From the NCBI GenBank assembly GCA_012842565.1, contig DUSO01000018.1:1-42168 (forward strand): a DNA stretch of 42,168 bases, given 5' to 3'. This DNA is from Bacillota bacterium. GTDB lineage: Bacteria > Bacillota > SHA-98 > Ch115. The notes beneath the pieces were generated by a model. The model saw nothing but the letters and a program-made list of their open reading frames with translations. It did no database searches and was not told the origin of the DNA. Position numbers and translations under genes: made by a program. Positions 1,914 through 19,583 of this stretch are shown one piece after another (within the stretch, counting starts at the first letter, position 1; each line of letters opens with the position of its first letter).

Positions 1914-2083
1914 TAAGCCAACCGCGCCGGCCGACGACGGCCGCGGCTGGGCTCGGGGCATCCGAGGATACGCGGGTGTGATTCGGTTCCCGGTGCCTGG
2001 GGGTGGGTCACGGCGGTGATCACCCTAATTCGCCTTGGACATGCAGGTATGCATGCCGGGGGCACGGGGGTGGAGACCTGGTG

Positions 2084-3535
2084 ATGGCTCTCGGAAATGG
2101 GCACCCGGTAGATAGCCCAGTACCATTTGGCGACCCGGCGGGCGGTAAGCTTCCTGTGGACTACCTCATAGCAGGCTCCATGGTCCTCACCCTTGACCCG
2201 CAAGGTACAGCCTATAGAGACGGGGCGGTCGCGACCCGCGGTGATGTGATCCTTGCTGTGGGCCCGGCGCGTGAAATCGAGGCAAGGGTCGCACCTAGGC
2301 GGAGAATTGATGGCAGCGGCAAACTGGTTATACCTGGGTTGATCAACGCCCACTCGCACATGGCCATGGCCCCGATGAGGGGGATCACCCATGACGTGCC
2401 CGGCGTGATCTACAGCATCATGTGGCCGGTCGAGGCGTCCCTGAGAGAAGAAGACATCTATGACCTCGCAATGCTGGGGGTGGTGGAGAGTCTCAGGGCC
2501 GGGACGACGTGCCTGGTAGACCACTACTTCTTCATGGAGGAAATCGCCCGCGCGTGCCAGGATGCGGGGATCCGCGCCGTCCTGGGCCATACTGTGATGA
2601 GCTCTGATGGGCCCTTTACGGGCGAGGACCAACTTCGTGCAGCCTTTGATTTCGTCGAACGCTGGCATGGCAGGTCTCCGCTAATCACTCCCTGGTTTGC
2701 CCCGCACGCGCCTGATACAGTAAGGCCTGAATGGCTCCGCGAGATGGCCGCGGCCTCCGGGAGATCCGGTGCGGGAATACACCTCCACCTTGCCCAGACC
2801 GAGCGCGAGGTGGAGGTCGTTCGGAGCCGCTACGGCCGGACGCCCGTAGAACAGCTGGCTGAATGCGGAATCCTCGGCCCAAGCACTCTCGCCGCACATT
2901 GCATTTACCTTACTGAGTCGGATATCGACCTCCTGGCCCAAAGCGGGACTACCGCTGTCTTTTGTCCCACCGTGCATGCAAATACCGGGAAGGTTTGCCG
3001 TGCAGCTCATCTTATGAGACGGGGTGTCAGGGTTGGGCTCGGGAGCGATTGTGCTTCAAACAATGACGACATGAACATGCTCGAGGAAATCCGGATGGCG
3101 GTAGCTGTCCAGAATACAATCGAAGGCCATCCGGGTGCGCTTACTGCAGGTCAGGCCTTGCGCATGGCTACTACGGTTAATGCCGCTGCCATCGGTCAGG
3201 CGGACAGGCTCGGCTCGATTAAGCCCGGTTACCAGGCGGATCTAGTGCTATTGGATATCAGAAAGGCAAGATGGACACCGCTCATAAACGCGGAAGCCAA
3301 TCTCGTGTATTGCGGGTCGGAAAGCGATATAGAGATGGTCTTCGTCGCAGGGGTCCTGGTTGTTGAAAACGGGAGGGTTACGACCGTGGAAGAGGACGAG
3401 GTTGTGCGGCGCGGTGCGGCAGCATGCCAGCGCATCTTTGACCGGGCAGGCCGTGCAATGCCCCGGTTTCGTAACCTGCCCGCAACCGTGTTTGCAGACG
3501 GCCCTCAGGGCGTGTTTTCTACAGATTTCTTTTGA
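2084..3535 (+). CDS. Amidohydrolase, SAH/5-methylthioadenosine deaminase–chlorohydrolase group
   Basis: A 483-residue protein of the metal-dependent amidohydrolase superfamily. The metal ligands are visible in order: HSHM near residues 90-93, HLHLAQT in the middle, AAHCIYL, and GLGSDCASNND. The C-terminal GSIKPGYQADLVLLD block is the beta-sandwich typical of the S-adenosylhomocysteine/MTA deaminase, guanine deaminase and atrazine chlorohydrolase group. The exact substrate cannot be assigned; an aminopurine or aminated heterocycle is likely. The frame stays open upstream to 2003, but GGTGGAG just before 2081 favours GTG 2081 or ATG 2084, close to the conserved DYLIAGSMVLTLDP beginning. With the AllA-like neighbour it could belong to purine salvage (inference). 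Confidence 0.85.
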   Translation: MALGNGHPVDSPVPFGDPAGGKLPVDYLIAGSMVLTLDPQGTAYRDGAVATRGDVILAVGPAREIEARVAPRRRIDGSGKLVIPGLINAHSHMAMAPMRGITHDVPGVIYSIMWPVEASLREEDIYDLAMLGVVESLRAGTTCLVDHYFFMEEIARACQDAGIRAVLGHTVMSSDGPFTGEDQLRAAFDFVERWHGRSPLITPWFAPHAPDTVRPEWLREMAAASGRSGAGIHLHLAQTEREVEVVRSRYGRTPVEQLAECGILGPSTLAAHCIYLTESDIDLLAQSGTTAVFCPTVHANTGKVCRAAHLMRRGVRVGLGSDCASNNDDMNMLEEIRMAVAVQNTIEGHPGALTAGQALRMATTVNAAAIGQADRLGSIKPGYQADLVLLDIRKARWTPLINAEANLVYCGSESDIEMVFVAGVLVVENGRVTTVEEDEVVRRGAAACQRIFDRAGRAMPRFRNLPATVFADGPQGVFSTDFF

Positions 3536-3715: not shown

Positions 3716-3923
3716 GCTCCGGAATGGCGGGGCGAGTCCTATAACCCAAGCCGCGGCAGGCGCCGAAGGAGCAAGGTCGGAGTGCCGTACGGCGTGCCGT
3801 CCTCCGGCTGAAACTCTCAGGCAGACGTACTTCGGGTTGATGGCCCTCTGGAGAGAATCCCCGGCCCTATTCGGCCGGGGGCGCCGACGGGGTAATGCAA
3901 TCTCTCAGGCTGTGGGACAGAGG
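3716..3923 (+). promoter_or_regulatory. Tandem glycine riboswitch (two gcvT-type aptamers)
   Basis: Two copies of the glycine aptamer core lie in series. Aptamer 1 has CGCCGAAGGAGCAA at 3761-3774 and AAACTCTCAGGC at 3811-3822. A linker leads into CTCTGGAGAG at 3846-3855, which opens aptamer 2. Aptamer 2 has GCGCCGACGGGG at 3881-3892 and ATCTCTCAGG at 3900-3909. Its P1 helix can be drawn exactly: CCTCTG 3845-3850 with CAGAGG 3918-3923. Order and spacing match the cooperative tandem class found upstream of gcv operons. Aptamer 1 is less canonical in its first paired strand (GCGAGTC instead of GGAGAGTC). Glycine binding is expected to raise expression of the operon that starts at 4036. Confidence 0.93.
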
Positions 3924-4035: not shown

Positions 4036-5142
4036 ATGAAACGCACGCCGCTATATGACGTGCACGTTGGCCTTGGTGCCCGGATGATCGGGTTTGGGGG
4101 GTGGGAGATGCCCGTCTCTTACACGGACATCGTTGAAGAACACCTGGCGGTAAGGAGCAAAGCTGGGCTGTTTGACTTAAGCCACATGGGAGAAATAGAG
4201 ATAAGCGGGACGGGGGCACTGGAGCTTATCCAGCGTCTTACGACCAATGATGCGTCGAAGCTCGCCCCCGGGCAAGTGCAGTATTCCCTGATGTTATACC
4301 CGGACGGGGGCATCGTCGACGACCTCCTGGTATACAGGTTCGCGGGTCATTACATGCTGGTGGTCAATGCATCGAATACAGGTAAGGATTTTGAATGGAT
4401 CAGAGAACATGCGAGCGGGGATGTAGCTGTCCGGGATGTGTCCCATGAGACCGCACTTGTGGCTATCCAGGGGCCATTTTCCGAGAGCATCCTGCAAAGG
4501 GTGACTGACTTTGACCTTTCATCCCTGGGCTATTATCGCTTCGCTGAGGCCAGCATCTCTGTTTTGGATGGTAAAGCGCGCCGGGCGTGTGTCATTTCTC
4601 GCACCGGCTACACTGGCGAAGACGGGTTTGAAATATATATTGACCGCAACTATGCTCGTGAGGCCTGGGAGACGCTCCTGGAAACAGGGAAGCCTGAGGG
4701 CCTTGTGCCAGTCGGGCTCGGGGCCAGGGATAGCCTGCGCCTCGAGGCCGCATATTCTCTCTATGGTCACGAAATTAATGAGGAGACCCTGCCGTATGAG
4801 GCCGGCCTTGGTTGGGTTGTCAAGGTCGACAAGGGAGATTTCGTAGGGAGGGAGGCCCTCCTAAAAGCTAAGGAAAGAGGTCTTGTCCGGAAACTTGTCG
4901 GGCTCGAGCTTGTCGAGCGCGGGGTGCCCCGCGCAGGATTTAAGATCGTCAAGGGAGCCGAAGAGGTGGGCTACCTCACAAGCGGCACGTTCTCCCCATC
5001 GCTCCAGAAGGGAATCGGCCTGGGGTACGTGTCCACTCAGGAAGCCAGGCCGGGAAATGAGCTTGCGGTCATGATAAGAAATAAGCCAGTCGGTGCGAAG
5101 GTGGTAAAGACTCCCTTTGTGGAGTCACACGTGAAGAAGTAG
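4036..5142 (+). CDS. gcvT: Glycine cleavage system T protein (aminomethyltransferase)
   Basis: A 368-residue T protein. It takes the aminomethyl group from GcvH-bound lipoamide, releases ammonia and forms 5,10-methylene-tetrahydrofolate. It begins MKRTPLYDVHVGLGARMIGF and continues with FGGWEMPVSY and the folate-site region FDLSHMGEI, followed by the typical DDLLVYR, SRTGYTGEDGFEIY and GLGARDSLRLEAAY blocks. The frame is open further upstream, but that part is riboswitch and terminator; GGGAGGGAG just before ATG 4036 sets the start. First gene of the operon gcvT-gcvH-gcvPA-gcvPB; 20 bases separate it from gcvH. Confidence 0.96.
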   Translation: MKRTPLYDVHVGLGARMIGFGGWEMPVSYTDIVEEHLAVRSKAGLFDLSHMGEIEISGTGALELIQRLTTNDASKLAPGQVQYSLMLYPDGGIVDDLLVYRFAGHYMLVVNASNTGKDFEWIREHASGDVAVRDVSHETALVAIQGPFSESILQRVTDFDLSSLGYYRFAEASISVLDGKARRACVISRTGYTGEDGFEIYIDRNYAREAWETLLETGKPEGLVPVGLGARDSLRLEAAYSLYGHEINEETLPYEAGLGWVVKVDKGDFVGREALLKAKERGLVRKLVGLELVERGVPRAGFKIVKGAEEVGYLTSGTFSPSLQKGIGLGYVSTQEARPGNELAVMIRNKPVGAKVVKTPFVESHVKK

Positions 5143-5162
5143 CCATACGAGGGGGGACTAGC

Positions 5163-5555
5163 ATGTATCCTGAGGACTTGAAGTATACCGAAAAGCATGA
5201 ATGGGTGAGGCTCGAAGGGAATAGAGCGGTGATAGGGATTACAAGCCACGCCCAGGACCAACTGGGGGCCATAGTTGGAATCGGGCTGCCACAGGTAGGG
5301 GACGTTGTGGAGCAAGGGCAGGAGCTGGCGGATATAGATTCTATGAAGACGGCTGATGTGATTTACGCTCCTGTGAGCGGCACCGTCGTTGAGGTGAACA
5401 AAAAGCTGGAGGAACACCCGGAGCTTATCAACGACGATCCTTACGGCGAGGGATGGGTGGCGGTGATTGAGATATCCAACGAGGAGGAGATAGGCTCCCT
5501 CATGAGCGCCGAAGAATATCGCGCCCTGGTGGAGGAAGGGGAGGAGGGCCATTGA
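5163..5555 (+). CDS. gcvH: Glycine cleavage system H protein (lipoyl carrier)
   Basis: A 130-residue H protein that shuttles the aminomethyl group between P, T and L proteins on a lipoyl arm. It starts MYPEDLKYTEKHEWVRLEGN, and the lipoylation site is K62 in ADIDSMKTADVIYAPVSG. The family more often has ESVK at this site; here it reads DSMK, with the acceptor lysine intact. In Firmicutes GcvH is also the first acceptor of octanoate from LipM, which matters because a LipM-like gene lies at 18714. The preceding SD is GGGGGG at 5152-5157. The stop overlaps the TTG start of gcvPA. Confidence 0.96.
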   Translation: MYPEDLKYTEKHEWVRLEGNRAVIGITSHAQDQLGAIVGIGLPQVGDVVEQGQELADIDSMKTADVIYAPVSGTVVEVNKKLEEHPELINDDPYGEGWVAVIEISNEEEIGSLMSAEEYRALVEEGEEGH

Positions 5556-7012
5556 ACTACATCCCCAACACAGAACGGGATCTTAGGGAAATGCTGGCGG
5601 CGATAGGGGTCGGGTCGGCCGAAGAGCTTTTCTCTGACATCCCGGCTGCTGTCCGGCTCAATAGAGACCTTGACCTCCCGCCGGCGCTGTCCGAGTACGA
5701 GCTCATAAAGCACATGAGCGGGCTTGCGGCGCGAAACCGTGGCGTCGATGATTATGTATCATTTCTGGGGGGCGGCGCATACGACCATTTCATCCCGAGC
5801 GCACTATTCACCATCCTTGGACGGTCGGAGTTCTACACAGCCTATACACCCTACCAGGCGGAAGTGAGCCAGGGCGTCCTCCAGTCGATATTTGAATACC
5901 AGTCGCTCATATGCGAGCTTACCGGCATGGATGTCAGCAATGCATCACTCTACGACGGGGCGACAGCCGTAGCCGAGGCGGCCACCATGGCGGCAAGGCA
6001 GACTCGCCGTAATGAGATTGTGATATCCCGCGCAGTTCATCCGGAGTATAGAATGTTGCTTAAGACCTATGCGCATGCCCTTGGCCTGCCCGTAAAGGAA
6101 ATCAGTTTCTCCGGTGGTATAACCGACCTCGAGGAGCTCAAGTCCGCCGTCACCGGTGCTACCGCATGTGTGATACTGCAGAGCCCCAACTTCTTTGGGT
6201 GCATTGAGCCCATGGGAGAGGCGGCGGATATATCTCACGCCGAAGGGGCGCTCTTTGTAGCGTGCGTGGACCCCATATCATTGGGGATCTTGGCACCCCC
6301 AGGCGAGTATGGTGCGGACATCGCCATAGGCGAAGGACAGGCGCTTGGCAATCCTCTCAATTTCGGTGGCCCCTACCTGGGCTTCCTTGCGTGCAAAAAT
6401 GAGTTCATTCGAAACATGCCGGGGAGGGTGGTGGGCGAGACCACCGACCCTAGGGGGCGGAGGGGATTTGTGCTGACGCTCCAGGCGCGCGAGCAGCACA
6501 TAAGAAGGGAAAGGGCTACCTCCAACATATGTTCCAATGAGGCGCTGTGCGCCCTTGCGGCTACCGTCTATCTCTCGCTTCTGGGAAAAAGCGGCATACG
6601 TGAGGTGGGCGAGCTTTGCGTGCAGAAATCCCACTACGCGGCAAAGAGGATAGCATCCATCCCCGGGTTTTCTATGAAGTATTCGGCTCCATTCTTCAAA
6701 GAATTCGTCATCGGCTGCCCCGTCGAGCCCTCATCCCTGATAATAGAGCTTAAGGGACAGGGGATCCTGCCAGGCATAGAGCTTGCCAGGATGTTGCCGC
6801 AAGATGAAAATCTAAAAGACGCGCTCCTTGTGGCCGTGACGGAAAAGCGGACAAAGGAGGAGATTGACAGGCTCGTCCAGGCTATGGCGCAATGTGCCGG
6901 GGCTGCCGTGCAGTCTGATGTCGGGGCTACAACACAGCCCGCCGGGGATACCCGGACAGAACGAGCGGCTGGCGACAGGGGACCCGCCTGCGGAAGAGAG
7001 GGATTGGCATGA
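5552..7012 (+). CDS. gcvPA: Glycine dehydrogenase (decarboxylating) subunit 1
   Basis: A 486-residue alpha subunit of the two-part P protein, which with GcvPB decarboxylates glycine and loads the aminomethyl group onto GcvH. Family landmarks are [12 protein letters not shown] at the start, [32 protein letters not shown] and NFGGPYLGF. The start is TTG 5552, overlapping the gcvH stop (TTGA) and preceded by GGGGAGGAGGG. The last ~35 residues (from about 452) are an Ala/Gly/Thr/Arg-rich tail beyond the usual ~445-450-residue length and look like low-complexity extension. The stop overlaps gcvPB (ATGA). Confidence 0.95.
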
Positions 7013-8601
7013 TCATCGAGCCAGAAGGACTCGGGCCAGGGGTGGAATCAAGAGCTATGGCGCAGAACAAGGCGAGGGGTCCAGAGCCCCTGATCTCGGA
7101 GCTGTCTTCGCCGGGCCGCAAGGGTTACTCGCTTCCGCCAATGGATGTGGAGGCAGGCAGGCTCGAGGACCTAATCCCGGAGGCCTACCTGCGGAAGGCC
7201 CCTCCTGGGCTGCCCGAGGTTTCAGAGGTTGACGTGGTTCGTCACTTCATCCGCCTCTCGCAGAAAAATTACGGCGTCGACGTCGGCTTTTACCCGCTCG
7301 GCTCCTGTACAATGAAATACAACCCGAAAGTGAATGAATACCTGGCCTCGCTCCCCGGCTTCATGTCATTACACCCTTATGAGCCGGAAGACCTGGTGCA
7401 GGGCGCACTCGAGCTCATGTATGAATTGCAGCAGTATCTCTGCGAAATCGGGGGCATGGACAGCGTGAGCCTCCAGCCCGCCGCAGGCGCCCATGGGGAG
7501 CTCACCGGGCTCCTGATGATCCGGGCATACCATGAGTACAGGGGAGAAGGCCAAAAAAGGACCAGGGTTATCGTCCCTGATTCAGCACATGGCACCAATC
7601 CAGCAAGTGCTGCCTTTTGCGGGTATAAGGTGGTAGAGGTTAAATCGGACGACAGGGGAGGGGTAGACGTCCGGGCCCTCCGTGAGATCATGGACGATTC
7701 CGTTGCGGCGCTGATGCTCACAAACCCCAACACCCTGGGCCTGTTTGACGAAAACATAGTAGAAGTCGCCGAGATCGTCCATGAGAAGGGCGGTCTCCTC
7801 TACTACGATGGCGCCAACATGAATGCTATAATGGGAATGGCAAGGCCGGGGGACATGGGCTTTGACGTGCTCCATTTCAACCTGCACAAGACCTTCTCCA
7901 CCCCCCATGGCGGTGGAGGGCCGGGCAGCGGGCCGGTAGGCGTCAAGAAAGCGCTGGAGCCGTTCCTTCCTGTGCCTGTCGTGGCGAGGAGGGATGCCCG
8001 GGCGGGTGACGTCCAAACCGGGAATGAACAGGCGGGGAACGGCCGGGTAGAGGACAGCCGGGGCGAGGGAGCCCCCCGGTATTTCCTTGATTACGACCGG
8101 CCGCTCAGCATAGGCAGGGTCAGGTCTTTTTACGGGAATTTCGGGGTGATGGTCAAGGCCTATGCATATATCCGGGCGCTTGGAGCTAAGGGCCTTAAGG
8201 AGGCGAGCGAGGCGGCCGTGATAGCCGCCAACTACGTGCTCAGCAGGCTCAAATCCCACTATCATGTGCCTTATGATCGCCATTGCAAGCACGAATTCGT
8301 CATATCTGCAAAGAACCAGATGGAATATGGGGTCCGTACGTCCGACATCGCCAAGGCTCTCCTGGACTACGGTTTCCATGCGCCGACCATTTACTTCCCG
8401 CTCATCGTCAAGGAGGCCATAATGGTGGAGCCGACCGAGACCGAGAGCAAGGAGACGCTGGATGCGTTTTGTGAAGCGTTGATCGAGATCGCGGACAAGG
8501 CGCGGAGTGACCCGGAATACCTGCACCAAGCGCCTCACACTACCGTAGTCGGCCGGCTGGACGAAGTAACTGCGGCGAGGAAGCCAAAGCTAAGGTGGTA
8601 G
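7009..8601 (+). CDS. gcvPB: Glycine dehydrogenase (decarboxylating) subunit 2
   Basis: A 530-residue beta subunit carrying the pyridoxal-phosphate lysine, K294 in [18 protein letters not shown]. Other landmarks are [35 protein letters not shown] and [11 protein letters not shown]. Two oddities: about 27 extra residues at the N-terminus before the conserved [15 protein letters not shown], and a Gly/Asp/Arg-rich insertion of about 30 residues at 327-357, just where most homologues go straight from VPVV to YYLDYDRP. The start ATG 7009 overlaps the gcvPA stop; ATG 7057 is an alternative closer to the family length. No dihydrolipoamide dehydrogenase (L protein) gene is in the window. Confidence 0.95.
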
Positions 8602-8682
8602 GTAGACCTTGGGATTGGCCGGGTTGCTTGTGCCTTAGATCGGGGTGTATCCAACACGGGAATTGCCAGGGACATCACTTTT

Positions 8683-9474
8683 GTGAATCCAACTAGGACA
8701 GCGAGCCTTAGCGTCACGGGGACAAGATGCTCGCTCAACTGCGCGCACTGCGGCGGGCATTACCTGCGGCATATGCTCCCCCCACAACTTTGGGGACGGC
8801 TTGACCCTGGACATACCACGAGCTGCCTTGTAAGCGGGGGGTGTGATGTGACGGGGAAGGTCCCAGTCCTGGCGTATAAGCACGAATTGCAGGCACTTGC
8901 CCGGGATTTCCGGCTAAACTTCCATGTCGGGCTTATGGACGAAGACGAGGCGAGGGAAATCTCCCCCCTCGTCTCCGTCGTTTCGTTCGATTTTGTCGCC
9001 GAGGATGAGACCATTCGCGAGGTCTACGGGGTCCGGCGCACGGCCGGCGATTACCTGGCCACCTATGAGATGTTAAGGAAGCACGTGCGGGTCATTCCCC
9101 ATATCTGTATCGGCCTTCGCGGGGGCAAGATATCAGGCGAGTATGCCGCCATTGATGCACTGAGCGAGATCGGCGCAGAGGCCATCGTATTCCTCGTTCT
9201 CATCCCAACTAGGGGAACGAGGTATTCCGGTATCGACCCGCCTCCCGTAGGAGAGGTTGTCAAGGTCATTCAGTATGCCCGTGAGGCTATGTCCACGTCG
9301 CCGATCTACATAGGGTGCATGAGGCCGCGGGGCGAATACCGGGCAAGATTAGATCAGGATGCGGTGGAGCTTGGGGTAGACCGGATCGTGGCCCCGGCCA
9401 GAGAGGCGGTGGTGCTCGCCCGCGAGCGGGGCCTTAACATCACGTGGCGCGAGGAGTGTTGCGCTTTTGCATAA
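8683..9474 (+). CDS. Radical SAM protein, LipS1/LipS2-type split lipoyl synthase component (COG1856-like)
   Basis: A 263-residue protein with the radical SAM cluster motif C16-x3-C20-x2-C23 in VTGTRCSLNCAHCGGHYL, the pattern of archaeal-type 'biotin synthase homologues' (COG1856). Proteins of this kind form one half of the two-protein lipoyl synthase described in Thermococcus kodakarensis. Further cysteines that could hold an auxiliary, sulfur-donating cluster are C48, C54, one in IGCMRPRG and C259/C260 at the C-terminus. The gene follows gcvPB by 81 bases with no terminator seen, so it may be the fifth gene of the glycine-riboswitch operon. The start is probably GTG 8683 (AGGGAC about 10 bases upstream); the same frame stays open back to the gcvPB stop. 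Radical SAM membership is secure; the lipoyl role is inferred from family and context. Confidence 0.75.
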   Translation: MNPTRTASLSVTGTRCSLNCAHCGGHYLRHMLPPQLWGRLDPGHTTSCLVSGGCDVTGKVPVLAYKHELQALARDFRLNFHVGLMDEDEAREISPLVSVVSFDFVAEDETIREVYGVRRTAGDYLATYEMLRKHVRVIPHICIGLRGGKISGEYAAIDALSEIGAEAIVFLVLIPTRGTRYSGIDPPPVGEVVKVIQYAREAMSTSPIYIGCMRPRGEYRARLDQDAVELGVDRIVAPAREAVVLARERGLNITWREECCAFA

Positions 9475-9497
9475 AGATGGGGAGGTTATGAACCGTA

Positions 9498-11393
9498 GTG
9501 GTTTATCAGCTTCTTGACGCGACAACACTGGAAGACATGCTCTCCACATATCATCTTGAAGATCTCAAGCAACTGTTGAGGCTGGCAAGGCCGCTCATAG
9601 AAGGCAGGCTGCCAACTCGAAAGGACGATATCGTCGCTGTCCTCTGCCGGTTGATGTCACGCGAGAACCTTCCAGGAATGTGGAGGCGCCTTACTGACCT
9701 CCAGAAGGCGGCGGTTGCGGAGGTCCTGTACAGTCCCATCAATAAACTGGATAAAGAGATGTTCAAGGCGAAGTATGGGAACAATGAGAAGAGGGACGAG
9801 CATGAGTTCCATAGGGACTCCTCTCGTGAGGATAACGAGGATGGCCTGCGTTCCGGCTACCTTCCGCTCTTTATTGGTCCTGATGGGAGAATGCCGCTCG
9901 ACCTGAGGGAAGCCTTGCGTAGTTTCGTTAAACGTCCCGCCGATGCTCGCGTAGAGACACTCGATGATCTTCCGGAGATGCCCGGCCTTAAGCGTGTGGA
10001 GACAGCCCGCCAGGCGATCCATGAACTCCCTGCCATCCTGCGCCTCGTAGAAATGGGCAAGATCAGGGTTAGCGCCACCACGCAGCGGGTAACTGCTGCC
10101 GGTATCAGGGAAATCACGAGGGTGCTTTTTAATGGGGATTTCTACCCGGCTGGCCGCGGGGTGGCCGACCACGCAGAGGCCGACCGCGGGGTGGCTGGCC
10201 GCGGGGAGGTTGATCATAGGGCGTCAGCCGGGCGTAGGCTGGATGAATATCAGCCTGAGGTTGGACCAATTCGCGCCTTCGCCTGGCCCCTCCTTCTCCA
10301 GGCTGGGAATCTAGCAGCAGTCGTTGGCGGGAAACTGGGATTGACGTCTGCCGGGCGGAAGGCCTTGAATGCCCCACCGCATGAGATCTTGCGGAGTATC
10401 TGGAGGCGCTGGCTCAAGACCACCATTATCGATGAATTCAGCCGCATCGAGGCCATCAAAGGCCAGCGGGCTAAAGGCGGCCGCCACATGACCGCACCTT
10501 CAGGGCGGCGGGCTGCTATCGCTGAAGCCTTAGCTGAAGTTCCTGTAGGCGAGTGGATCGGTGTTGAGGAGTTTGGCCGTTTCATGAGGGCCTCGGGCCA
10601 TATGTTTGAGGTAACCCGCAACGAGTGGAACCTCTACGTGGGTGACCCCCAATATGGAAGCCTGGGGTATGCAGGATTTGGCGGATGGAATATCCTGCAG
10701 GGGCGGTACCTGATGGTGTTCCTGCTGGAATACGTCGCGACACTGGGCATGGTGGACGTGGCCTATACAAATCCGGAAGAAGCCCCGCGTGATTTCGGGA
10801 ATATCTGGGGTACAGATGACCTCTTGTACCTGAGTCGCTATGATGGCCTGCGCTACATCCGCCTGAATAACCTGGGAGCTTACTGCCTTGAATTGGTAGA
10901 AGACTATGCCCCGGAGCCGGAGGATGAGCGCAGGAGCATTACTGTCCTGCCAAACCGGGAGATCATTGCCCCGCCTCAGCAGCTCTTGCCTACCGATGAG
11001 CTGCTCCTGGCGCGTTTTGCCCGCAAGACCTCAGAGTCAGCTTGGTCCATGGATCTCGGCACCATACTTGCGGCCGTCGAAGGTGGGCTGGATCTGGACG
11101 AGATAAGGAGATTCCTCACGGTCCGTAGCAAAAACCCGCTACCTGACACGGTTCGCGATCTCCTGGAGGATGCAGCAAGGCGACTTAAGCGGCTTACAGA
11201 CTGCGGACAAGCCCGTCTGATTGAGGCCGACGATCCCGCCCTGGCCCTGGAGATCGTGAACAACAGCAGCCTGCGTGGACGTTGCCTGCTGGCGGGCGAA
11301 CGCTACATTGTTGTGCCATCCGATTCGGAGGGGCTATTCCGGTCGACGTTGCGCGAGCTTGGATATATCTTGTCCGGGGCTTCCAAGGTATGA
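9498..11393 (+). CDS. Large uncharacterised protein, possibly helicase-associated (XPB/Ssl2 N-domain-like)
   Basis: A 631-residue soluble protein not confidently recognised. It starts at GTG 9498 with GGGGAGGT at 9479-9486. The N-terminal ~110 residues contain short helical, leucine-rich segments (LKQLLRLARPLIEGRLPTRK) like those of SAP-type or helicase-associated modules. The C-terminal region with RSITVLPNREIIAPPQQLLP, then LLLARFARKTS and ...FRSTLRELGYILS, resembles the 'helicase conserved C-terminal' (PF13625, Helicase_C_3) proteins of Actinobacteria and Clostridia, but no Walker motifs are present. Around residues 220-245 is a Gly/Asp/Arg/Ala-rich insertion made of near-repeats of CCGCGGGG. 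It lies between the LipS-type gene and the glycoside hydrolase and shares no obvious task with either. Confidence 0.6.
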   Translation: MVYQLLDATTLEDMLSTYHLEDLKQLLRLARPLIEGRLPTRKDDIVAVLCRLMSRENLPGMWRRLTDLQKAAVAEVLYSPINKLDKEMFKAKYGNNEKRDEHEFHRDSSREDNEDGLRSGYLPLFIGPDGRMPLDLREALRSFVKRPADARVETLDDLPEMPGLKRVETARQAIHELPAILRLVEMGKIRVSATTQRVTAAGIREITRVLFNGDFYPAGRGVADHAEADRGVAGRGEVDHRASAGRRLDEYQPEVGPIRAFAWPLLLQAGNLAAVVGGKLGLTSAGRKALNAPPHEILRSIWRRWLKTTIIDEFSRIEAIKGQRAKGGRHMTAPSGRRAAIAEALAEVPVGEWIGVEEFGRFMRASGHMFEVTRNEWNLYVGDPQYGSLGYAGFGGWNILQGRYLMVFLLEYVATLGMVDVAYTNPEEAPRDFGNIWGTDDLLYLSRYDGLRYIRLNNLGAYCLELVEDYAPEPEDERRSITVLPNREIIAPPQQLLPTDELLLARFARKTSESAWSMDLGTILAAVEGGLDLDEIRRFLTVRSKNPLPDTVRDLLEDAARRLKRLTDCGQARLIEADDPALALEIVNNSSLRGRCLLAGERYIVVPSDSEGLFRSTLRELGYILSGASKV

Positions 11394-11405
11394 GGTAGCT
11401 GGTGT

Positions 11406-13628
11406 ATGGTCGATAGGAATGCATCCAAGCATGGGGTTGTCCTAAGAGGGTCGCCTGTCTTTAGAGGATCGCCTGCCCGCTTTGTCTTAGGCGTCAATTA
11501 CTGGCCAAGGAACCATGGCGTCCAGATGTGGAAGGAGTGGGACCAAGGCGAGATCAGGCAGGAATTTGCGGAGATTTCCGCCCTCGGACTGGATGTCGTG
11601 AGGGTATTTCTCCTTTGGGAGGACTTCCAGCCCTCCCCCGAGGTCGTGGATGAACAAAATCTCGGTAAGTTCGACGAGTTGCTGGCCATTGCCCGCGACT
11701 GCGGGCTTAAGATTGTCCCTACCTTTTTCACCGGTCACATGAGCGGGGAGAATTGGGATGTTCCCTGGCGACATGGGCGCGATCCCTATTCCGATCCATT
11801 CATGCTGAGGGCTCAGGCGAAGCTCGTTGACGTCTTCGCGAGGCGATATGCAGAGGAGAATACTATACTGTTTTGGGACCTCGCCAACGAGCCCGATATA
11901 TTCGTGCGGCCACGATGTCGCCACGCCGCGTGGCTCTGGGCGGACTTCATGGCCAAGACTATACGGATTTGGGACCGTAACCACCCTGTCACCCTCGGAA
12001 TTCACATGCAGTCGCTCTCCGATGACAACGGGATAAGGCCTGAAGACATGGCTGAGTCCAATGACTTCCTCTGCATGCATGCGTATCCACTGTATACCGA
12101 GCTTTGTCCAGAGCCCCTGAATGCGTTTCGCAGCACATATCTTGTCCCGTTTTGCAGCAAGCTCACAGAAGGAATGGGCCGTAAGTCGGTCTTCTTCGAG
12201 GAATTTGGCGGGACCACGCAGATGGTTTCCGAGGATATATTGGCGGGGTACTATTCAGCTACACTATACAGTCTCCTGGCCAACGGAGCTCTTGGCGCCC
12301 TCGCCTGGTGTTTTGGCGACTTCACCGTGGGCGAGAGGTTACCATACAACTCCACGCCTTATGAAGCCGGGTTTGGCATTACAAAAGTGAGCGGTGAACC
12401 CAAGAAGCCAGCCTTGGTCATGAAGCAACTTGCCTTGCTCGCAAGGCGGGTCGGCCCGGTTTCGCCCTTCCCTGGCGCTCCTCGCGCCGCGATCCTCATC
12501 CCGCGGCGGTATTATGACAACTATGACCCGGACGTCACTCCGGAGAGGAACATGAGGGCGCTGTTTAATTCCTTCCTGCTGGCGAAGCAGGCCGGGCTGA
12601 ATCCGGACCTGGTGCGGCTTGATTCGGACCTCGAAGGCTATGATATCTACTTCCTCCCGTCATTTTCAAGGAGGGGGAGCCTCTATGTATCCGACTGGAA
12701 GCGGATTACGGAGCTTGTGCACGCGGGAAAGACACTTTACTGCTCCTATGGGGGGATAGCCATAGAGGGGTTTGACGAGGTCTTCGGCATCGAGGTTGTC
12801 TCTACGTCGTACAAGTGGCCGGGGATGAGAATCGGAATTTTTGATGATTTGGGCGGCCTCGAATGCGAGACTGCCGGGTTTGAGGACAAACTCGTCCTTC
12901 CCATTCCCGGTGTCGCGCTTGGCCGTACGAAGGTGCTGGACGTGAGGCCGGCTGGTTGCAGGGTCGTCGCCTCTTATCTTGCCGATTCTCATCCTCTGGT
13001 CCTCCATTCGCGGGGGACGGCATCTCGGAAGGCTCGTTATGCTTGCGAGGAGGATCCTTGTGAGAATTGTGAGAAGGTACAGGTTGAGATACCCTTACAT
13101 GGAAGCCCTGCTATCGTCGTAAATGATTTCGGGCGCGGGAAGACCATCCTTGTCACCTTCCCCTTGGAGTTGGCCATTTCATATGAGGTAGGCGTCTATG
13201 AGACCAGCCCCTGGTACAGGGTTTACAGATATGCCGCAGGGCTTACCGGTAGGAGGTCGGCATTCACTTGTACAAACCCCTTTATCGAAATAATGCCCTT
13301 GATTAAAGGCACCGGAGCCAGCAAGGAACCAGGTGGAGGGCCCGCGCTTCCCGATTACTCAATCCCCGACTACTTGATCGTAGTGAATCATGATAGTTCG
13401 CCCAAGGTAGCGGACCTTCAGGTAGGGGCACCATGGGTCGACCGGCTACGCAGGCTCACCGTATCCGATGCCGGTGACGTCGAACCCTTTGATATTTCGG
13501 GCTTCAGTCCAAATGCTCCAATTGACGGGATTGTCCTTGACGGGACTCTCCCGCGCGTTTTCAGTACCCGCCTGGATGCGAATGAGGGTTGCATACTGCA
13601 GGTGGTGGTCAGGCTGCGTGAGGAATAG
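11406..13628 (+). CDS. Glycoside hydrolase of clan GH-A (GH5/GH42-like, beta-mannanase-type active site)
   Basis: A 740-residue protein without a signal peptide, so probably cytoplasmic. The first ~330 residues form a (beta/alpha)8 glycosidase: LGVNYWPRNHGVQMWKEWD, VVRVFLLWEDFQP, the acid/base site WDLANEPD (E162) and the nucleophile site FFEEFGG (probably E266). The middle (about 370-520) looks like the GH42-type glutamine-amidotransferase-like trimerisation domain (ILIPRRYYDNYD, YDIYFLPS, CSYGG), and the end is beta-rich. The likely role is hydrolysis of beta-linked gluco-, manno- or galacto-oligosaccharides. Start ATG 11406 follows GAGGT by about 10 bases and lies 13 bases after the preceding stop. 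An 18-bp tandem repeat encodes RGSPVF/RGSPAR near the N-terminus. Confidence 0.85.
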   Translation: MVDRNASKHGVVLRGSPVFRGSPARFVLGVNYWPRNHGVQMWKEWDQGEIRQEFAEISALGLDVVRVFLLWEDFQPSPEVVDEQNLGKFDELLAIARDCGLKIVPTFFTGHMSGENWDVPWRHGRDPYSDPFMLRAQAKLVDVFARRYAEENTILFWDLANEPDIFVRPRCRHAAWLWADFMAKTIRIWDRNHPVTLGIHMQSLSDDNGIRPEDMAESNDFLCMHAYPLYTELCPEPLNAFRSTYLVPFCSKLTEGMGRKSVFFEEFGGTTQMVSEDILAGYYSATLYSLLANGALGALAWCFGDFTVGERLPYNSTPYEAGFGITKVSGEPKKPALVMKQLALLARRVGPVSPFPGAPRAAILIPRRYYDNYDPDVTPERNMRALFNSFLLAKQAGLNPDLVRLDSDLEGYDIYFLPSFSRRGSLYVSDWKRITELVHAGKTLYCSYGGIAIEGFDEVFGIEVVSTSYKWPGMRIGIFDDLGGLECETAGFEDKLVLPIPGVALGRTKVLDVRPAGCRVVASYLADSHPLVLHSRGTASRKARYACEEDPCENCEKVQVEIPLHGSPAIVVNDFGRGKTILVTFPLELAISYEVGVYETSPWYRVYRYAAGLTGRRSAFTCTNPFIEIMPLIKGTGASKEPGGGPALPDYSIPDYLIVVNHDSSPKVADLQVGAPWVDRLRRLTVSDAGDVEPFDISGFSPNAPIDGIVLDGTLPRVFSTRLDANEGCILQVVVRLREE
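11445..11480 (+). repeat. 18-bp imperfect tandem duplication inside the glycoside hydrolase gene
   Basis: Units 11445-11462 (agagggtcgcctgtcttt) and 11463-11480 (agaggatcgcctgcccgc) follow directly and match over most positions. They encode RGSPVF and RGSPAR, before the conserved LGVNYWP beginning. Similar 18-bp units occur in two other genes of this window. Confidence 0.65.
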
Positions 13629-13666
13629 CATGCATACCGGGATCGCTCTGCTCGATGCCGGCAGAG

Positions 13667-14917
13667 TTAGGCCTTTGCCGCATCACCGGCCGATGGGGGA
13701 CACATCCTATCAAATCGCTCCACGGCAAGTTTAAGCAAGATCGCATGATTGAGATTCTTGGCCGGTTCCAGGCCGGTGAGTTCTCTTATCTTGGCCAGGC
13801 GGAAAATAAGGGTGTTCCTGTGAATATAGAGGTTCCTGGAAGCTCGGGCTATGTTCATGTTGGTGTCAATGAGGGCCTTGGCGGTGCGAAGCAAGTCCAG
13901 CTGCTGTCCCGGCTTTTTCCGGAACAGCCTGTCGGCGATTGGATCCACGAAGTGGGCGAGCGTTGTTTCGTCTATTTCCCCCATCAGGTAGTTCGCGAGG
14001 ATATCCGGGTCATAAATAAACTGAACCTGCCTTGCAGTGTCGGTTTGGCTGAGTTGACCGAGCCTGAGTATTGCCAGTGCTTCCTGATAAGAGGCTTTGA
14101 GCCCGCCGGGGTTCAAGTGGAGGCTGCCAATTGCCACGTTGACCCCGTGCCCTCCAAAGGCGTCTATCATGATTTGGTGCAGTTTCAGGGCCCACCGCCG
14201 TAGTTCGTCAACCGCCCGCTGCTCAGGCGTCCCTATAGCCTTCAGTATTACAAGCCGCGTGTCGCTCAGGTATGCTGAGATATCTTGGGATGTCAGTGTT
14301 TGTGAGGAGCCAAGCAGGTCCAGGACCCTTTCTCTTGTCCTCGAGGCTACAAGGTCGGCTTCCGAACAGACTGCCTTCAGGCGAATAAGGAGGCCGGCGA
14401 TATCTACTATCGTGACTACCCGTGGGAGGAGCATATCATAGCCCAGGAGATGCCCCCATTCAATTATTGCATCGGGGTCCTGCAGTGCTTTGTCGGACAG
14501 GACCTCCCTCATAAACTGTTCCCTCACCCTATATTGCGACTGTACCTGTTCCCGGAGGGCCTCTCGCTCCAAGAGAAGCTCTACGGCCATTCTGACTAGC
14601 TTGGCGATATCCCTCACCTCGTCAGGATCGCCAAATACTCCCACCACGCCGACGACCCGGTCGTTAATCTTGATGGGCATATTGACTCCTTCTTTTGCGC
14701 CGGGAAAGTGGTCTACCTGGTCCGGTCGTATCTCCACCGTCTCCCCAGACTTGATTACGTCGTCGGCTCCCTTATGGTAGGTAAACAGGCGGTGCCTGTG
14801 CCCTGAGCCGATTATGATGCCCCTATTATCCATAATGTTCACATTTCTTTGGACGATCGCCATCGTGGCGTCGACTATCCTTTGCGCAAGCTCATGTGTG
14901 ATTATCACACATCTCAC
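13667..14917 (-). CDS. cdaR: CdaR-family (sugar diacid-type) transcriptional regulator
   Basis: A 416-residue regulator with three parts: an N-terminal sugar-diacid recognition domain (ITHELAQRIVDATMAIVQRNVNIMD, then IIGSGHRHRLF, NMPIKINDRVVGVVGVFGDP), a degenerate GGDEF-like middle, and a C-terminal PucR-type helix-turn-helix (TAKALIDTNMNIARASRNLYIHRNTLIFRL, quoted in parts). In Escherichia coli CdaR senses glucarate/galactarate/glycerate. No diacid catabolic gene is adjacent here, so its target may be elsewhere or be itself. The start is GTG 14917 or the second GTG at 14908, which has GGGGTGAGA just upstream. Convergent with the glycoside hydrolase, 38 bases apart. Confidence 0.88.
   Translation of the reverse strand: MRCVIITHELAQRIVDATMAIVQRNVNIMDNRGIIIGSGHRHRLFTYHKGADDVIKSGETVEIRPDQVDHFPGAKEGVNMPIKINDRVVGVVGVFGDPDEVRDIAKLVRMAVELLLEREALREQVQSQYRVREQFMREVLSDKALQDPDAIIEWGHLLGYDMLLPRVVTIVDIAGLLIRLKAVCSEADLVASRTRERVLDLLGSSQTLTSQDISAYLSDTRLVILKAIGTPEQRAVDELRRWALKLHQIMIDAFGGHGVNVAIGSLHLNPGGLKASYQEALAILRLGQLSQTDTARQVQFIYDPDILANYLMGEIDETTLAHFVDPIADRLFRKKPGQQLDLLRTAKALIDTNMNIARASRNLYIHRNTLIFRLAKIRELTGLEPAKNLNHAILLKLAVERFDRMCPPSAGDAAKA
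14894..14912. promoter_or_regulatory. 19-bp perfect palindrome over the cdaR translation start
   Basis: ATGTGTGAT-T-ATCACACAT is a perfect palindrome around position 14903, covering the first codons of the CdaR-type gene. It resembles an operator for a dimeric regulator, with TGTGA and TCACA arms but only three bases between them, unlike the six of a CRP site. Autoregulation is a reasonable guess. Confidence 0.5.
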
Positions 14918-15217
14918 CCCAATGCGGGGAGAGCCGATCCTGCCGCCCTCCGCATCGACTACTCCCGTGGTCTCTCAAGGCGGCGCCCCTCAATTTTTGG
15001 ATTCGCCTCCTGCCGCGGGGATTCCTTCTCCTGGGCACCTGGCACAAATGCCGGCTGAATAATTGGGCCCTTGTTGTATATTTCGTCAATTGATGCGCTC
15101 AAACCATGTCATTAAAATTATATTAGCATATGCCCACATAGCGTAGCGACGATGAATTGTTGCGGGCGACTCCTAAGCGGCGCATCTAGGAGTAAAAGCG
15201 AGTGAGTGAAAGCACAA
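14918..15217. other. Divergent intergenic region between cdaR and the MBL-fold gene
   Basis: No gene is seen. The right two thirds are AT-richer and hold a candidate promoter (15090-15118) reading right. A perfect 7-bp inverted repeat, ACTCCTA at 15169-15175 and TAGGAGT at 15187-15193, lies in the leader and would tie up the only good SD-like sequence (TAGGAG) upstream of ATG 15218. The left third is GC-rich leader of cdaR. Confidence 0.4.
15090..15118 (+). promoter_or_regulatory. Candidate sigma-A promoter
   Basis: TTGATG (15090-15095), a 17-base spacer, then TAAAAT (15113-15118). It reads toward the MBL-fold gene at 15218 and would give a leader of about 90 bases. Confidence 0.45.
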
Positions 15218-16061
15218 ATGACGGTGACCATCATCACGCTCATCGAAAACCGTCAGGGAACTCATACCCGGCTTCTGGCCGAGCACGGGTTGTCCTTTTT
15301 TCGTAGAGGTCAAGGGTCAGCCACCCTTTCTTTTTGATACGGGTCAGAGCGACAGCCTAATATGGAATGCCGGGCAGATTGGTGTAAGCCTCAAGGACGT
15401 AGATACCGTCATACTGAGCCATAGCCACTACGACCATACCGGCGGGCTAATTCCCTTTGTTAAGAAAACCAAACCCAAGGAGGTGTTGGTGCCTCGGGAC
15501 TTTTTTGACCCCAAGTACAAGGTGAATGGCATTAAAAGAGAATTCATTGGCAACAGTTTTTCCAAGGAGGAACTCGCCTCCCAGGTGGAAAGGGTGACTG
15601 GTGTCCTGGATGACCTATATGAGCTTCGCCCGGGCGTCTTCGTAGCTACCAACATCCCGGCAGTAACGCCCTATGAAGGCATCTCCGAACCATTTTTTAT
15701 CCTGAAAAATGGGGCTCTTGTACGGGACGACTTCAGGTCCGAATTGGTAGTGGTCATCATGACTCCTGAGGGGCTTCTGGTAATGTGCGGGTGCGCCCAC
15801 GCGGGCATTGTGAATATCGTGCGCCACGTCTCACGGCTTACAGGTATATCCAGGATTCGGGCTGTACTGGGGGGCACGCACCTGGTGCATGCGAGTCGCG
15901 CCAGGATCCAGAATACCGCTATTGACCTCAAAACAGCGGGCGTGGAAAGCATAGGAGTTTCTCACTGTACTGGGCAGCAGGCTGAAAGACAGTTGGCGAA
16001 GGTGTACGGCGATCGGTTCTTTTCAAACAATACGGGCACAATGGTCGAGTTCGACTTATGA
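15218..16061 (+). pseudogene. MBL-fold hydrolase (COG1237-like), interrupted by a one-base frameshift
   Basis: The N-terminus reads MTVTIITLIENRQGTHTRLL and AEHGLSFF in frame from ATG 15218, then meets a stop. One base further on, the protein continues as VEVKGQPPFLFDTGQ, the metal-site motif LSHSHYDHTGGL, then MCGCAHAGIVNI and VSHCTG, to TGA 16061. The break is at a run of six T at 15296-15301; five T would restore one frame of about 280 residues. The family (COG1237, 'RFA-phosphate synthase-like' metallo-beta-lactamase fold) has poorly known substrates. A sequencing or assembly error is as likely as a real mutation, because every downstream motif is intact. A start at 15483 would lose the metal-binding histidines. 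Confidence 0.75.
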
Positions 16062-16122
16062 GGCTAAAGTCGAATCCGGCCAAGAGGTCGAATTCGATTA
16101 GTGCATCCAGGAGGTGGGAGAG

Positions 16123-17538
16123 ATGAGTAGGCAACCGTTAGAGATTCAGCAACCCCCCAGAGGGTGGTCTATGCTTCTCATGGTCGGTCCTGGAATCGTC
16201 TGGACGGGCATGGCAATCGGTGGCGGCGAGCTTGTGCTCAATCCACGCGTTGGTGCAATATTTGGGATAACAACGCTCTGGATGCCCCTCCTGGCGATAG
16301 CGCTGAAATGGTTCATGGTTAATGAAATCGGCCGCTGGAGTATCTACACCGGTACTTCGATCCGAGAAGGGCTCGCTCTCCTCCCCGGTCCACGCAAGTG
16401 GCTTTCGTGGATCATACTCTTGAGTGGGCTCTACCTGGGCGCTGTGCACATAGGCGGCCTTGTCGCAATGGTGGGAGTGATTACCTCCACGATTCTGCCG
16501 TTCTTGCCCCCTTATGCATGGGCCGTAATAATGATGCTATCATACGTCCTCCTGACATGGAGTGGACGGTATAGCCTGGTAGAGCGCATAATGATGGCCT
16601 GTGTGGCTATGCTTACGATCACCACGGCTTTCATCACTTTTCGGATATTCCCGGGATGGGGCGCCATCCTCGACGGATTCCGGTTCATCGTGCCTACATC
16701 GACGCCGGAATGGGCGGTAGAAAACTTCAAGATATCACCCAATCCACTAGTGGAGATACTTCCAGCCATGGCCTTCGCCGGGGCCGGAGCCATCAATAGC
16801 CTCTGGTATTCTGACTGGGTACTGGCAAAGGGATTTGCCTCTGCCGGTTACTATAACCTCGGCTCATCTTCATTTGATCTTGCTCAACTCAAGGAGCTTG
16901 GCCGGAATGAGGTCGACAAGCTCCGGGGATGGTACAGGGTCATGTTCCATGACGCCCTCTGGGGAGGGAATGTGCTCACGCTTGTGGTTACAGGATTTTT
17001 CGTGTTAAACGCCACGGTAATCCTGCATCCCCTCCATCTAGCCCCGGCAGGGGTCAATTTCATCATGACCCTCTCCAAGACTTTTACGGAGGTTCTGGGG
17101 CCGGGAGCGAAATGGCTATACTTGATAGGCGCCTGGGCAGTTATTTATAGCACAATGGCGACCGTATATGACGGGTATGCGAGGCTCATCGACAATTCTA
17201 TAAAGATATGCCTGCCCAATTGGCGCCAGTATCTCTCGATACCTCTCCTCTGGAGGTACAGGATCTGGGTGCTCTATGGCACCCTAACCAATTTCGTTCT
17301 CGTCTACATGTTTAGTGCGATTCCCGTAGGTTTCCTCCAAGCAGCTTCGTGGGTTGAGGGCACATATCTCCTGCCGATCGTTGCTTTCGGCATAGCCTAT
17401 CTAACTCGCGTGATCCTCCCCAGGCTCTACCCGCCTGAAATGGCCGACAAGGTGCGGCCTCATTGGGCAATGACCGCGGGCACCGTAGCTGCAGGTATGT
17501 TCTATCTCATTCTCATTATCTATGCCCTGATTCTATGA
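16123..17538 (+). CDS. Nramp-like metal ion transporter with non-canonical metal site
   Basis: A 471-residue membrane protein with about 11 hydrophobic segments, in the Nramp fold family. TM1 reads VGPGIVWTGMAIGGGELVLN, where classical Nramp metal transporters have DPGN; the TM6 region reads ILPAMAFAGAGAINSLWYSD, where they have an A-x-x-MPH motif. Both classical metal-binding elements are therefore altered, as in several distant 'Nramp-related' clades of unknown substrate. GTG 16114 is in frame, but GGAGGTG at 16110-16116 is better placed for ATG 16123. It follows the MBL-fold gene by 61 bases and may be co-transcribed with it. Confidence 0.8.
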   Translation: MSRQPLEIQQPPRGWSMLLMVGPGIVWTGMAIGGGELVLNPRVGAIFGITTLWMPLLAIALKWFMVNEIGRWSIYTGTSIREGLALLPGPRKWLSWIILLSGLYLGAVHIGGLVAMVGVITSTILPFLPPYAWAVIMMLSYVLLTWSGRYSLVERIMMACVAMLTITTAFITFRIFPGWGAILDGFRFIVPTSTPEWAVENFKISPNPLVEILPAMAFAGAGAINSLWYSDWVLAKGFASAGYYNLGSSSFDLAQLKELGRNEVDKLRGWYRVMFHDALWGGNVLTLVVTGFFVLNATVILHPLHLAPAGVNFIMTLSKTFTEVLGPGAKWLYLIGAWAVIYSTMATVYDGYARLIDNSIKICLPNWRQYLSIPLLWRYRIWVLYGTLTNFVLVYMFSAIPVGFLQAASWVEGTYLLPIVAFGIAYLTRVILPRLYPPEMADKVRPHWAMTAGTVAAGMFYLILIIYALIL

Positions 17539-17680
17539 AATATCAACTCTCCCTTCGCAGTTCTTGAAGCCGGATTTTGGCGCGGGGGAGGTCCGGTGCA
17601 GGTGAGATCCGGGCCTCCTCGCAATATATGGTTCGCCCCAACGCTTGACTGGGCCACCGGCTAGAGTATAAAGTGAAACC
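17539..17680. other. Intergenic region with a GC-rich hairpin and a promoter
   Basis: GGAGGTCCGG and CCGGGCCTCC (about 17588-17617) can form a ~10-bp hairpin with one G·U. No T-run follows, so a terminator role for the Nramp-like gene is doubtful. The right end carries a promoter-like pair described separately. No gene is seen. Confidence 0.4.
17645..17672 (+). promoter_or_regulatory. Candidate sigma-A promoter directly before the LipS-type/lipM pair
   Basis: TTGACT (17645-17650), a 16-base spacer and TATAAA (17667-17672). The start codon at 17681 is only nine bases past the -10 box and no SD is visible, so transcription may start at or next to the ATG (leaderless mRNA). Confidence 0.55.
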
Positions 17681-18724
17681 ATGGAGCACGAACCCTTATC
17701 GTCCATGCGTTATCTCAGGGTATCACTCGGCACCGCGATGGCCCTCGGACTCACGAAGGGCCGGATGGACGTTCCTCCGACGACAGCATATTTCCTGGTA
17801 CCGGGAGGCTGTCAGGGGACCTGCATGTTCTGCCCGCAGGCCCGGACCAGCTTGGGACACAGGGATCTTCTTTCGCGAGTGAGCTGGCCTCTATTCCCGG
17901 CCGAGGATGTCCTGGCGGCCCTAAGAGAAAACCAGAGTTCGCCTGTGGAGCAGAGTTCGTCTATAGAGGGCCGGGAGGGCCCTGGCGCAGGTCCGTCAAG
18001 CGCAACGCTCAGATTTCAGCGCGCCTGTATTCAAGTCGTCCAGAATCCTAAGGCGATGGAAATTGTGAGTTTCCTCTTGACGGAGCTCGGCACACTCCTG
18101 CCCGTCTCGGTGTCTTACCACCCTAAATCGCGGGAGGAGCTCGCTCGGATATTTGACCTTGGCGCCCAACGGGTTGGAATCGCGTTGGACTGTGCCACCG
18201 AGGGACTCTATCGTAAGATTAGAGGCGGGTCATACCGCGAGACGATAGACCTCCTGGAGTGGGCTGCACAGGCTTTTCCGGGGCGCATCAGTACCCACCT
18301 GATAATCGGCCTCGGCGAAACTGAGGAAGAAGCACTCCATACCATCCAGACGATGTATGATCTCGGGATTACGGTCGGCCTTTTTGCTTTTACTCCCGTC
18401 CCCGGCACACCATTGGAGGGCAAGGAGCCTCCTGATCCTCTTGCGTACCGGAGGGTCCAGGTGGCTCGATGGCTTATATCGCATGGCCTAAAGCGTTTTG
18501 ACGACTTTACGTTCGATGATGGCAGGGTCATTGCCTTTGGTATGAGCTCGCTCGAGCTTGCAAACTTGCTTTCCTCGGGGGAGGCTTTTCAGACATCAGG
18601 TTGCGCCGGCTGCAACAGGCCTTATTATAATGAGAAGCCCGGCGGGTTCATCTATAATTACCCCAGGAAGCTCACAGCAACTGAGGCCGAAAGCATCAGG
18701 GAGGCTTTGCTCGATGCCATCTGA
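17681..18724 (+). CDS. Radical SAM protein, LipS1/LipS2-type split lipoyl synthase component (COG2516-like)
   Basis: A 347-residue protein with the radical SAM motif C44-x3-C48-x2-C51 in PGGCQGTCMFCPQARTSLG. It has a second cysteine pair, C308 and C311 in TSGCAGCNRPYYNE, near the end. This layout is that of the 'biotin synthase-related' COG2516 proteins, one of which is a half of the split lipoyl synthase of Thermococcus kodakarensis. The paired C-terminal cysteines may help hold the sacrificial cluster that donates sulfur. Its last 11 bases overlap the start of a LipM-like octanoyltransferase gene, the strongest context for a lipoyl role. A low-complexity insertion (QSSPVEQSSSIE, then a Gly/Pro stretch) follows the first 85 residues. 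The start ATG 17681 lacks an SD; ATG 17705 is an alternative. Confidence 0.8.
   Translation: MEHEPLSSMRYLRVSLGTAMALGLTKGRMDVPPTTAYFLVPGGCQGTCMFCPQARTSLGHRDLLSRVSWPLFPAEDVLAALRENQSSPVEQSSSIEGREGPGAGPSSATLRFQRACIQVVQNPKAMEIVSFLLTELGTLLPVSVSYHPKSREELARIFDLGAQRVGIALDCATEGLYRKIRGGSYRETIDLLEWAAQAFPGRISTHLIIGLGETEEEALHTIQTMYDLGITVGLFAFTPVPGTPLEGKEPPDPLAYRRVQVARWLISHGLKRFDDFTFDDGRVIAFGMSSLELANLLSSGEAFQTSGCAGCNRPYYNEKPGGFIYNYPRKLTATEAESIREALLDAI
17933..17968 (+). repeat. 18-bp imperfect tandem duplication inside the LipS-type gene
   Basis: Units 17933-17950 (cagagttcgcctgtggag) and 17951-17968 (cagagttcgtctatagag) lie head to tail and encode QSSPVE and QSSSIE in register with the gene's frame, in an insertion between the cluster domain and the rest of the barrel. 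Confidence 0.7.
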
Positions 18725-19583
18725 GATATCTTATGGCAACTGGCCGCCCGATACGTGGCGTTTCCTGAATACAGGTTTTGCCAGGGGTTCATGGAATATG
18801 GCCGTTGATGAGGCCATTCTGACCTGTCACGCGAAAGGGGTTGTGCCTCCAACCGTGCGCCTGTATGGCTGGAGTCCTCCTGCTCTCTCGCTTGGGCGCA
18901 TCCAGTCTCTTAAGCGGGACGTAGACCGGGATGCGTGTATAGCTATGGGGATCGACATCGTCCGCAGGCCCACTGGCGGCCGAGCAGTGCTCCACGACAA
19001 GGAGGTGACATATAGTTTCATCCTCGCCGAATCCAACCCGTTGTGCCCTAAAGATATCAGCGGAGCTTTCAGCCTTGCGACGTCCGGCATAATACACGGA
19101 CTCGCCATCCTCGGCATTGATGCCCGTATTCATGGCGGGCCCGGGAGGCGGGAAGGCGATATTGGAGCTTCCTCGCCGGCGTGCTTTGACTCTCCTTCAT
19201 GGTATGAGGTCGTCGCCGGCGGCAAGAAGCTTGTGGGAAGCGCCCAGGCCAGGATGAAAGGCGTGCTGATGCAACATGGTTCAATCCTCCTGGAGCTGGA
19301 GCCCGAGAAGGTGGCCAGGCTCTTTCGCTTCTCTGATAGTGTGACCAGAGATAGGATAGCATCTGAGCTCGAGAAGCAGGCTACGAGTGTATCCAGGCTG
19401 GCCGGGAGGCCGGTTCGATTTGATGAAGTCGCATCTGCCCTGCGGGACGGATTTCGCAGGTTCTTTGCCGGTGCTTTCGGTATCACGTTGAAAGACGGGG
19501 AGCTCCTGCCCGAAGAACTCTGCCTTGCCCGGGAGCTCGAGAGGGACAAGTACGGGTCGGATTCCTGGACAGCGCTCAGGTAG
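18714..19583 (+). CDS. lipM: Octanoyltransferase LipM-like (lipoate–protein ligase A family)
   Basis: A 289-residue protein of the BPL/LplA/LipB family. Landmarks are RFLNTGFARGSWNMAVDEAI, SLGRIQSLKRDVD, the substrate loop RRPTGGRAVLHDKEVTYS, the block ACFDSPSWYE and KKLVGSAQARMKGVLMQHGS. The cysteine in ACFDSPSWYE is C157; Bacillus subtilis LipM uses Cys150 as nucleophile in an equivalent position, so an octanoyl-ACP:GcvH transferase fits better than an ATP-dependent LplA. The ~80-residue LplA C-terminal domain is absent. ATG 18714 lies inside the end of the LipS-type gene with GAGG about 10 bases upstream; the frame is open further back, but only within the upstream gene. It would supply octanoyl-GcvH for the two radical SAM proteins. 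Confidence 0.85.
   Translation: MPSEISYGNWPPDTWRFLNTGFARGSWNMAVDEAILTCHAKGVVPPTVRLYGWSPPALSLGRIQSLKRDVDRDACIAMGIDIVRRPTGGRAVLHDKEVTYSFILAESNPLCPKDISGAFSLATSGIIHGLAILGIDARIHGGPGRREGDIGASSPACFDSPSWYEVVAGGKKLVGSAQARMKGVLMQHGSILLELEPEKVARLFRFSDSVTRDRIASELEKQATSVSRLAGRPVRFDEVASALRDGFRRFFAGAFGITLKDGELLPEELCLARELERDKYGSDSWTALR

Follow-up and report, generated by a model that had tools for sequence, protein, structure and literature searches.

Gene-cluster and genome-wide evidence for a LipA-independent pathway predicted to lipoylate the glycine cleavage H protein in Bacillota

In Thermococcus kodakarensis, lipoyl synthase is formed by two radical SAM proteins, LipS1 and LipS2 (TK2109/TK2248), and sulfur was shown to be inserted at C8 by LipS2 and at C6 by LipS1 (PMC9585515). 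The same study described LipS1/S2 neighbourhoods which contain GcvH and a lipoate ligase-family gene. For bacteria, Tanabe et al. 2023 (PMC10332631) name Schekmanbacteria, Synergistota and Thermotogota as examples with LipS1/S2 and LipM and without a ligase, infer that LipS1/S2 there act on proteins octanoylated by a transferase, and call the co-occurrence of LipA common in LipS1/S2 bacteria. Two further routes are relevant for comparison: the sLpl(AB)-LipS1/S2 route for LbpA in sulfur oxidisers (PMC6067878, PMC10332631) and the LipM-LipA-LipL route of Bacillus subtilis (PMC6067878).

Here, we analysed a stretch of 42,168 nucleotides (contig DUSO01000018.1, assembly GCA_012842565.1, Bacillota), in the following called the window. 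Its radical SAM pair shares both families and the Cx3Cx2C motifs with the T. kodakarensis proteins (PMC9585515), and the auxiliary-cluster cysteines and the histidine match by order and approximate spacing; unlike that pair, it belongs to a bacterial host and is linked to a gcv operon and to LipM. With the bacteria of PMC10332631 it has LipS1, LipS2, LipM and the lack of a lipoate ligase in common, the differences being a Bacillota host, a gcv operon led by a glycine riboswitch and relatives that mostly lack lipA. The sulfur oxidisers likewise use LipS1/S2 as lipoyl synthase, but together with a ligase and LbpA instead of a transferase and GcvH (PMC6067878, PMC10332631). The proposed octanoylation of GcvH by LipM is shared with Bacillus subtilis, whereas the window has LipS1/S2 in place of LipA, and neither LipL nor E2 acceptors were found (PMC6067878).

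All genes named by an earlier sequence-only reading of the window were recovered at their positions, and the identities of the gcv, lipS1 and lipS2 genes are based on curated NCBIfam cut-offs (TIGR and NF models). The plus strand carries gcvT (4036-5142), encoding the aminomethyltransferase or T protein (TIGR00528, 424 bits, cut-off 236), gcvH (5163-5555), encoding the lipoyl carrier H protein (TIGR00527, 156 bits, cut-off 116), and gcvPA (5552-7012) and gcvPB (7009-8601), encoding glycine decarboxylase subunits 1 and 2 (NF001696, 653 bits, cut-off 364; NF003346, 785 bits, cut-off 441). Directly behind gcvPB, as the reading had it, follows lipS1 (8683-9474); lipS2 (17681-18724) and lipM (18714-19583) are found further downstream on the same strand. 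We consider it very probable that these genes together provide every step needed to lipoylate the glycine cleavage H protein without LipA. In the proposed route, LipM would transfer octanoate from octanoyl-ACP, via a thioester at Cys157, to the lysine of GcvH. By analogy with T. kodakarensis, LipS2 would carry out the first sulfur insertion at C8 and LipS1 the second at C6, giving lipoyl-GcvH, and each of them may sacrifice sulfur from an auxiliary [4Fe-4S] cluster.

The assignment of the two radical SAM proteins as the LipS components, first proposed from the sequence, was borne out by the equivalog models and by the conservation of the cluster residues. LipS1 matches NF053742 over its full length with 298 bits (cut-off 230, E 5.6e-89) and LipS2 matches NF053743, also over its full length, with 350 bits (cut-off 270, E 8e-105). 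The Cx3Cx2C motif is formed by C16/C20/C23 (CSLNCAHC) in LipS1 and by C44/C48/C51 (CQGTCMFC) in LipS2, which additionally carries C308/C311 in a C-terminal SGCAGC. In alignments with homologues from Bacillota, Chloroflexota and archaea, C16, C20, C23, H140, C212, C259 and C260 of LipS1 are each conserved at 1.00 (n=95), and C44, C48, C51, C116, C308 and C311 of LipS2 each at 0.99-1.00 (n=109). The T. kodakarensis proteins require C27/C31/C34, C230, C276, C277 and probably H159 in LipS1, and C39/C43/C46, C85, C276 and C279 in LipS2 (PMC9585515); the correspondence with the window residues was drawn by order and approximate spacing rather than by direct alignment with the TK proteins, and window LipS2 has additional residues between C51 and C116 relative to T. 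kodakarensis. A PDB sequence search with LipS1 gave no matches, and with LipS2 only weak ones to BioB, PylB and LipA. In a quick tree restricted to LipS1-type sequences, with weakly supported deep forks, window LipS1 groups with relatives of its order and class in which this cassette is also found (support 97 for the smallest starred set, of 14 rows), and it was not placed in a clade of another function. Judged by their sequences, 8683-9474 is thus LipS1 and 17681-18724 is LipS2; lipoyl synthase activity in this organism is predicted by analogy.

The third enzyme was classified by domain, cysteine and context, on which grounds 18714-19583 is taken to be a LipM-type octanoyltransferase. As described in the sequence-only reading, the gene overlaps lipS2, by 11 nt when its first ATG at 18714 is used, and Cys157 lies within an ACFDSPSWYE segment. 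The product matches only the domains PF21948 (132 bits, cut-off 27) and PF03099, and it also carries Lys172. Cys157 is present in 62 of 62 homologues having an ACFDSPSWYE-type segment; it is missing in 14 proteins, most of them fused Lpl(AB) ligases encoded in second, ligase-linked lipS clusters and the others archaeal LplA-like proteins. No NCBIfam LipM equivalog was found above its cut-off for 18714-19583, and a search of plasmids for annotated LipM returned only distant ligase-family proteins.

The search was extended to the whole genome (2.55 Mb, 199 contigs, 97.8% complete). The absence of LipA, noted before for the window, holds genome-wide: no gene exceeds the TIGR00510 cut-off of 310 bits, and the two best matches, with 24 and 23 bits, are LipS2 itself and HydE. 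The LipA-like match on contig C44 was rejected on the basis of its HydE score (348 bits). The incompleteness of the assembly makes it possible that a lipA was missed, which is unlikely because the same pattern recurs in dozens of relatives. The PF21948 model matches a single gene in the genome, lipM, in agreement with the earlier statement that no LipB is seen. Only one GcvH is encoded, no E2 of a 2-oxoacid dehydrogenase was detected in the genome, and two other Biotin_lipoyl matches were rejected as additional lipoyl acceptors since they represent BCCP and an HlyD-type adaptor. GcvH, regarded from the beginning as the product to be lipoylated, is therefore the only evident lipoyl acceptor. 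One lipoamide dehydrogenase scores above cut-off; LipL was neither seen in the genome nor is it needed.

In a sample of 300 genomes drawn from the phylum, LipS1 was found above cut-off in 64, and these also contain GcvH (64), an LplA/B-domain gene (62) and LipS2 above cut-off (57), with lipA present in just 8 of the 64. In 48 of the 64, a single contig carries gcvH, lipS1 and lipS2 within 12 kb, together with a gene of the LplA/B-domain family that is in most cases lipM; a few of these clusters are of the ligase type, and 42 of the 48 genomes are without lipA. The order gcvT-H-PA-PB-lipS1-lipS2-lipM is kept at 34 named Bacillota loci and partially at 13 more, some of them cut by contig ends, in genera including Desulfosporosinus, Acididesulfobacillus, Desulfotruncus, Thermincola and Carboxydothermus. 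The LipS1/LipS2 pathway type is thus common in this phylum. In Chloroflexota, the order is lipS1-lipS2-gcvT-H-PA-PB, and at three such loci (L110, L159, L173), with lipS1-lipS2 before gcvT, there is no LipM match nearby. An additional lipS1/lipS2 pair, more divergent and scoring about 220-240 bits, is present in many relatives (L073-L086; G001, G279, G124, G181, G206, G080, G117, G126 and others); in several cases Lpl(AB) and a protein similar to GcvH are encoded close by, as in the published ligase-linked type. One genome with LipS1/S2 contains a lipA match with three in-frame stops (G043:C8:65768-66637), possibly a decaying lipA.

The start distance between lipS1 and lipS2 is below 1.5 kb in 61 of the 64 LipS1-positive genomes and is widest, with 9.0 kb, in the window genome. 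Five unrelated genes (9498-17538), absent from this place in the relatives examined, separate the two here: they encode a Helicase_C_3 protein, a GH5-like protein, a CdaR/PucR-type regulator (minus strand), an MBL-fold-like protein in a broken frame and an Nramp transporter. From the adjacency of lipS1 and lipS2 in the relatives it follows that the window shows the common cluster interrupted by a five-gene insertion of about 8 kb, which parts lipS2-lipM from the rest; the segment represents a lineage-specific insertion or rearrangement, or a misassembly. Since lipS1 and lipS2 are 8 kb apart in the window genome, the evidence for an operon is taken from the relatives. The metallo-beta-lactamase-fold-like gene (15217-16061; recognised by eye, no family match) seems to lose its frame near 15300, either as a pseudogene or through a sequencing error.

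A tandem glycine riboswitch (3720-3923, plus strand) precedes gcvT, with aptamers at 3720-3842 and 3845-3923 (Rfam RF00504, 35.4 and 39.9 bits, gathering score 32). An overlapping RF03166 match reaches 45.8 bits and stays under the gathering score of 110. In seven of seven relatives tested, gcvT is also preceded by a glycine riboswitch. The gene spacing suggests that lipS1 would be included in riboswitch control, and because the four gcv genes and lipS1 sit behind the tandem riboswitch, glycine probably induces the cleavage complex and, at the same time, some of the machinery that makes its cofactor. In the window genome, lipS2-lipM is probably under another promoter; a promoter-like 9-of-12 match at 17645-17674, upstream of lipS2, alone proves nothing. 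Just before the riboswitch, 2003-3535 encodes an amidohydrolase related to 5'-deoxyadenosine/SAH deaminases, below family cut-offs, which might recycle a radical SAM by-product.

Two other interpretations have to be weighed against this pathway. The LplA-domain protein could be an ATP-dependent lipoate/octanoate:protein ligase, so that the pathway would draw on free octanoate or lipoate. The best solved relative is indeed Thermoplasma LplA (E 1.6e-20), the best NCBIfam match is LplA_large, though far under its cut-off (134 versus 480), and the bacterial LipS1/S2 proven by experiment so far work with the sLpl(AB) ligase (PMC10332631). However, no LplB-type accessory domain was matched in the protein, Cys157 is absent from Thermoplasma LplA in the alignment, and this cysteine with the inserted ACFDSPSWYE segment occurs in all members of the cassette and is missing from the linked Lpl(AB) proteins. 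We therefore regard a ligase as quite unlikely and prefer the octanoyltransferase LipM.

It is also conceivable that the radical SAM pair is BioB-like, forms some other sulfur- or biotin-like compound and stands near gcv by chance. LipS2 does have a weak similarity to BioB (35.8 bits, cut-off 225); the equivalog scores for LipS1 and LipS2 are much higher, the linkage with gcvH and lipM is kept across many families, and the genome has no other lipoyl synthase although GcvH needs one. Such a function is extremely improbable, which leaves LipS1/LipS2 acting with LipM on GcvH as the preferred reading.

The sequence-only reading had suggested that the locus would be a notable variant of lipoate assembly. 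The proposed pathway is supported, but its novelty was overstated: publications of 2022-2023 already described LipS1/S2 together with LipM (PMC10332631) and a linkage of bacterial LipS1/S2 to GcvH (PMC9585515), both families are in NCBIfam, and the arrangement is common in the phylum. New are the phylum count, the rarity of lipA in it, the riboswitch and the interruption of the cluster, and the supplementary tables of PMC10332631 may list such clusters. No biochemical test of the LipM-LipS2-LipS1 route on GcvH was found in the open-access literature searched. Published experiments with bacterial LipS1/S2 relied on the ligase route, so that cultured Bacillota offer a direct test of the route in which a transferase is coupled to LipS1/S2 on GcvH. 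The assignments should also help annotators, such proteins having been labelled biotin synthases before. Taken together, the gene clusters and the genome-wide inventory make a case for a LipA-free lipoyl synthase that works with an octanoyltransferase and is common in one phylum. In much of this Bacillota phylum, a dedicated LipM-LipS2-LipS1 line under induction by glycine has probably taken the place of LipA, and it would lipoylate GcvH alone.
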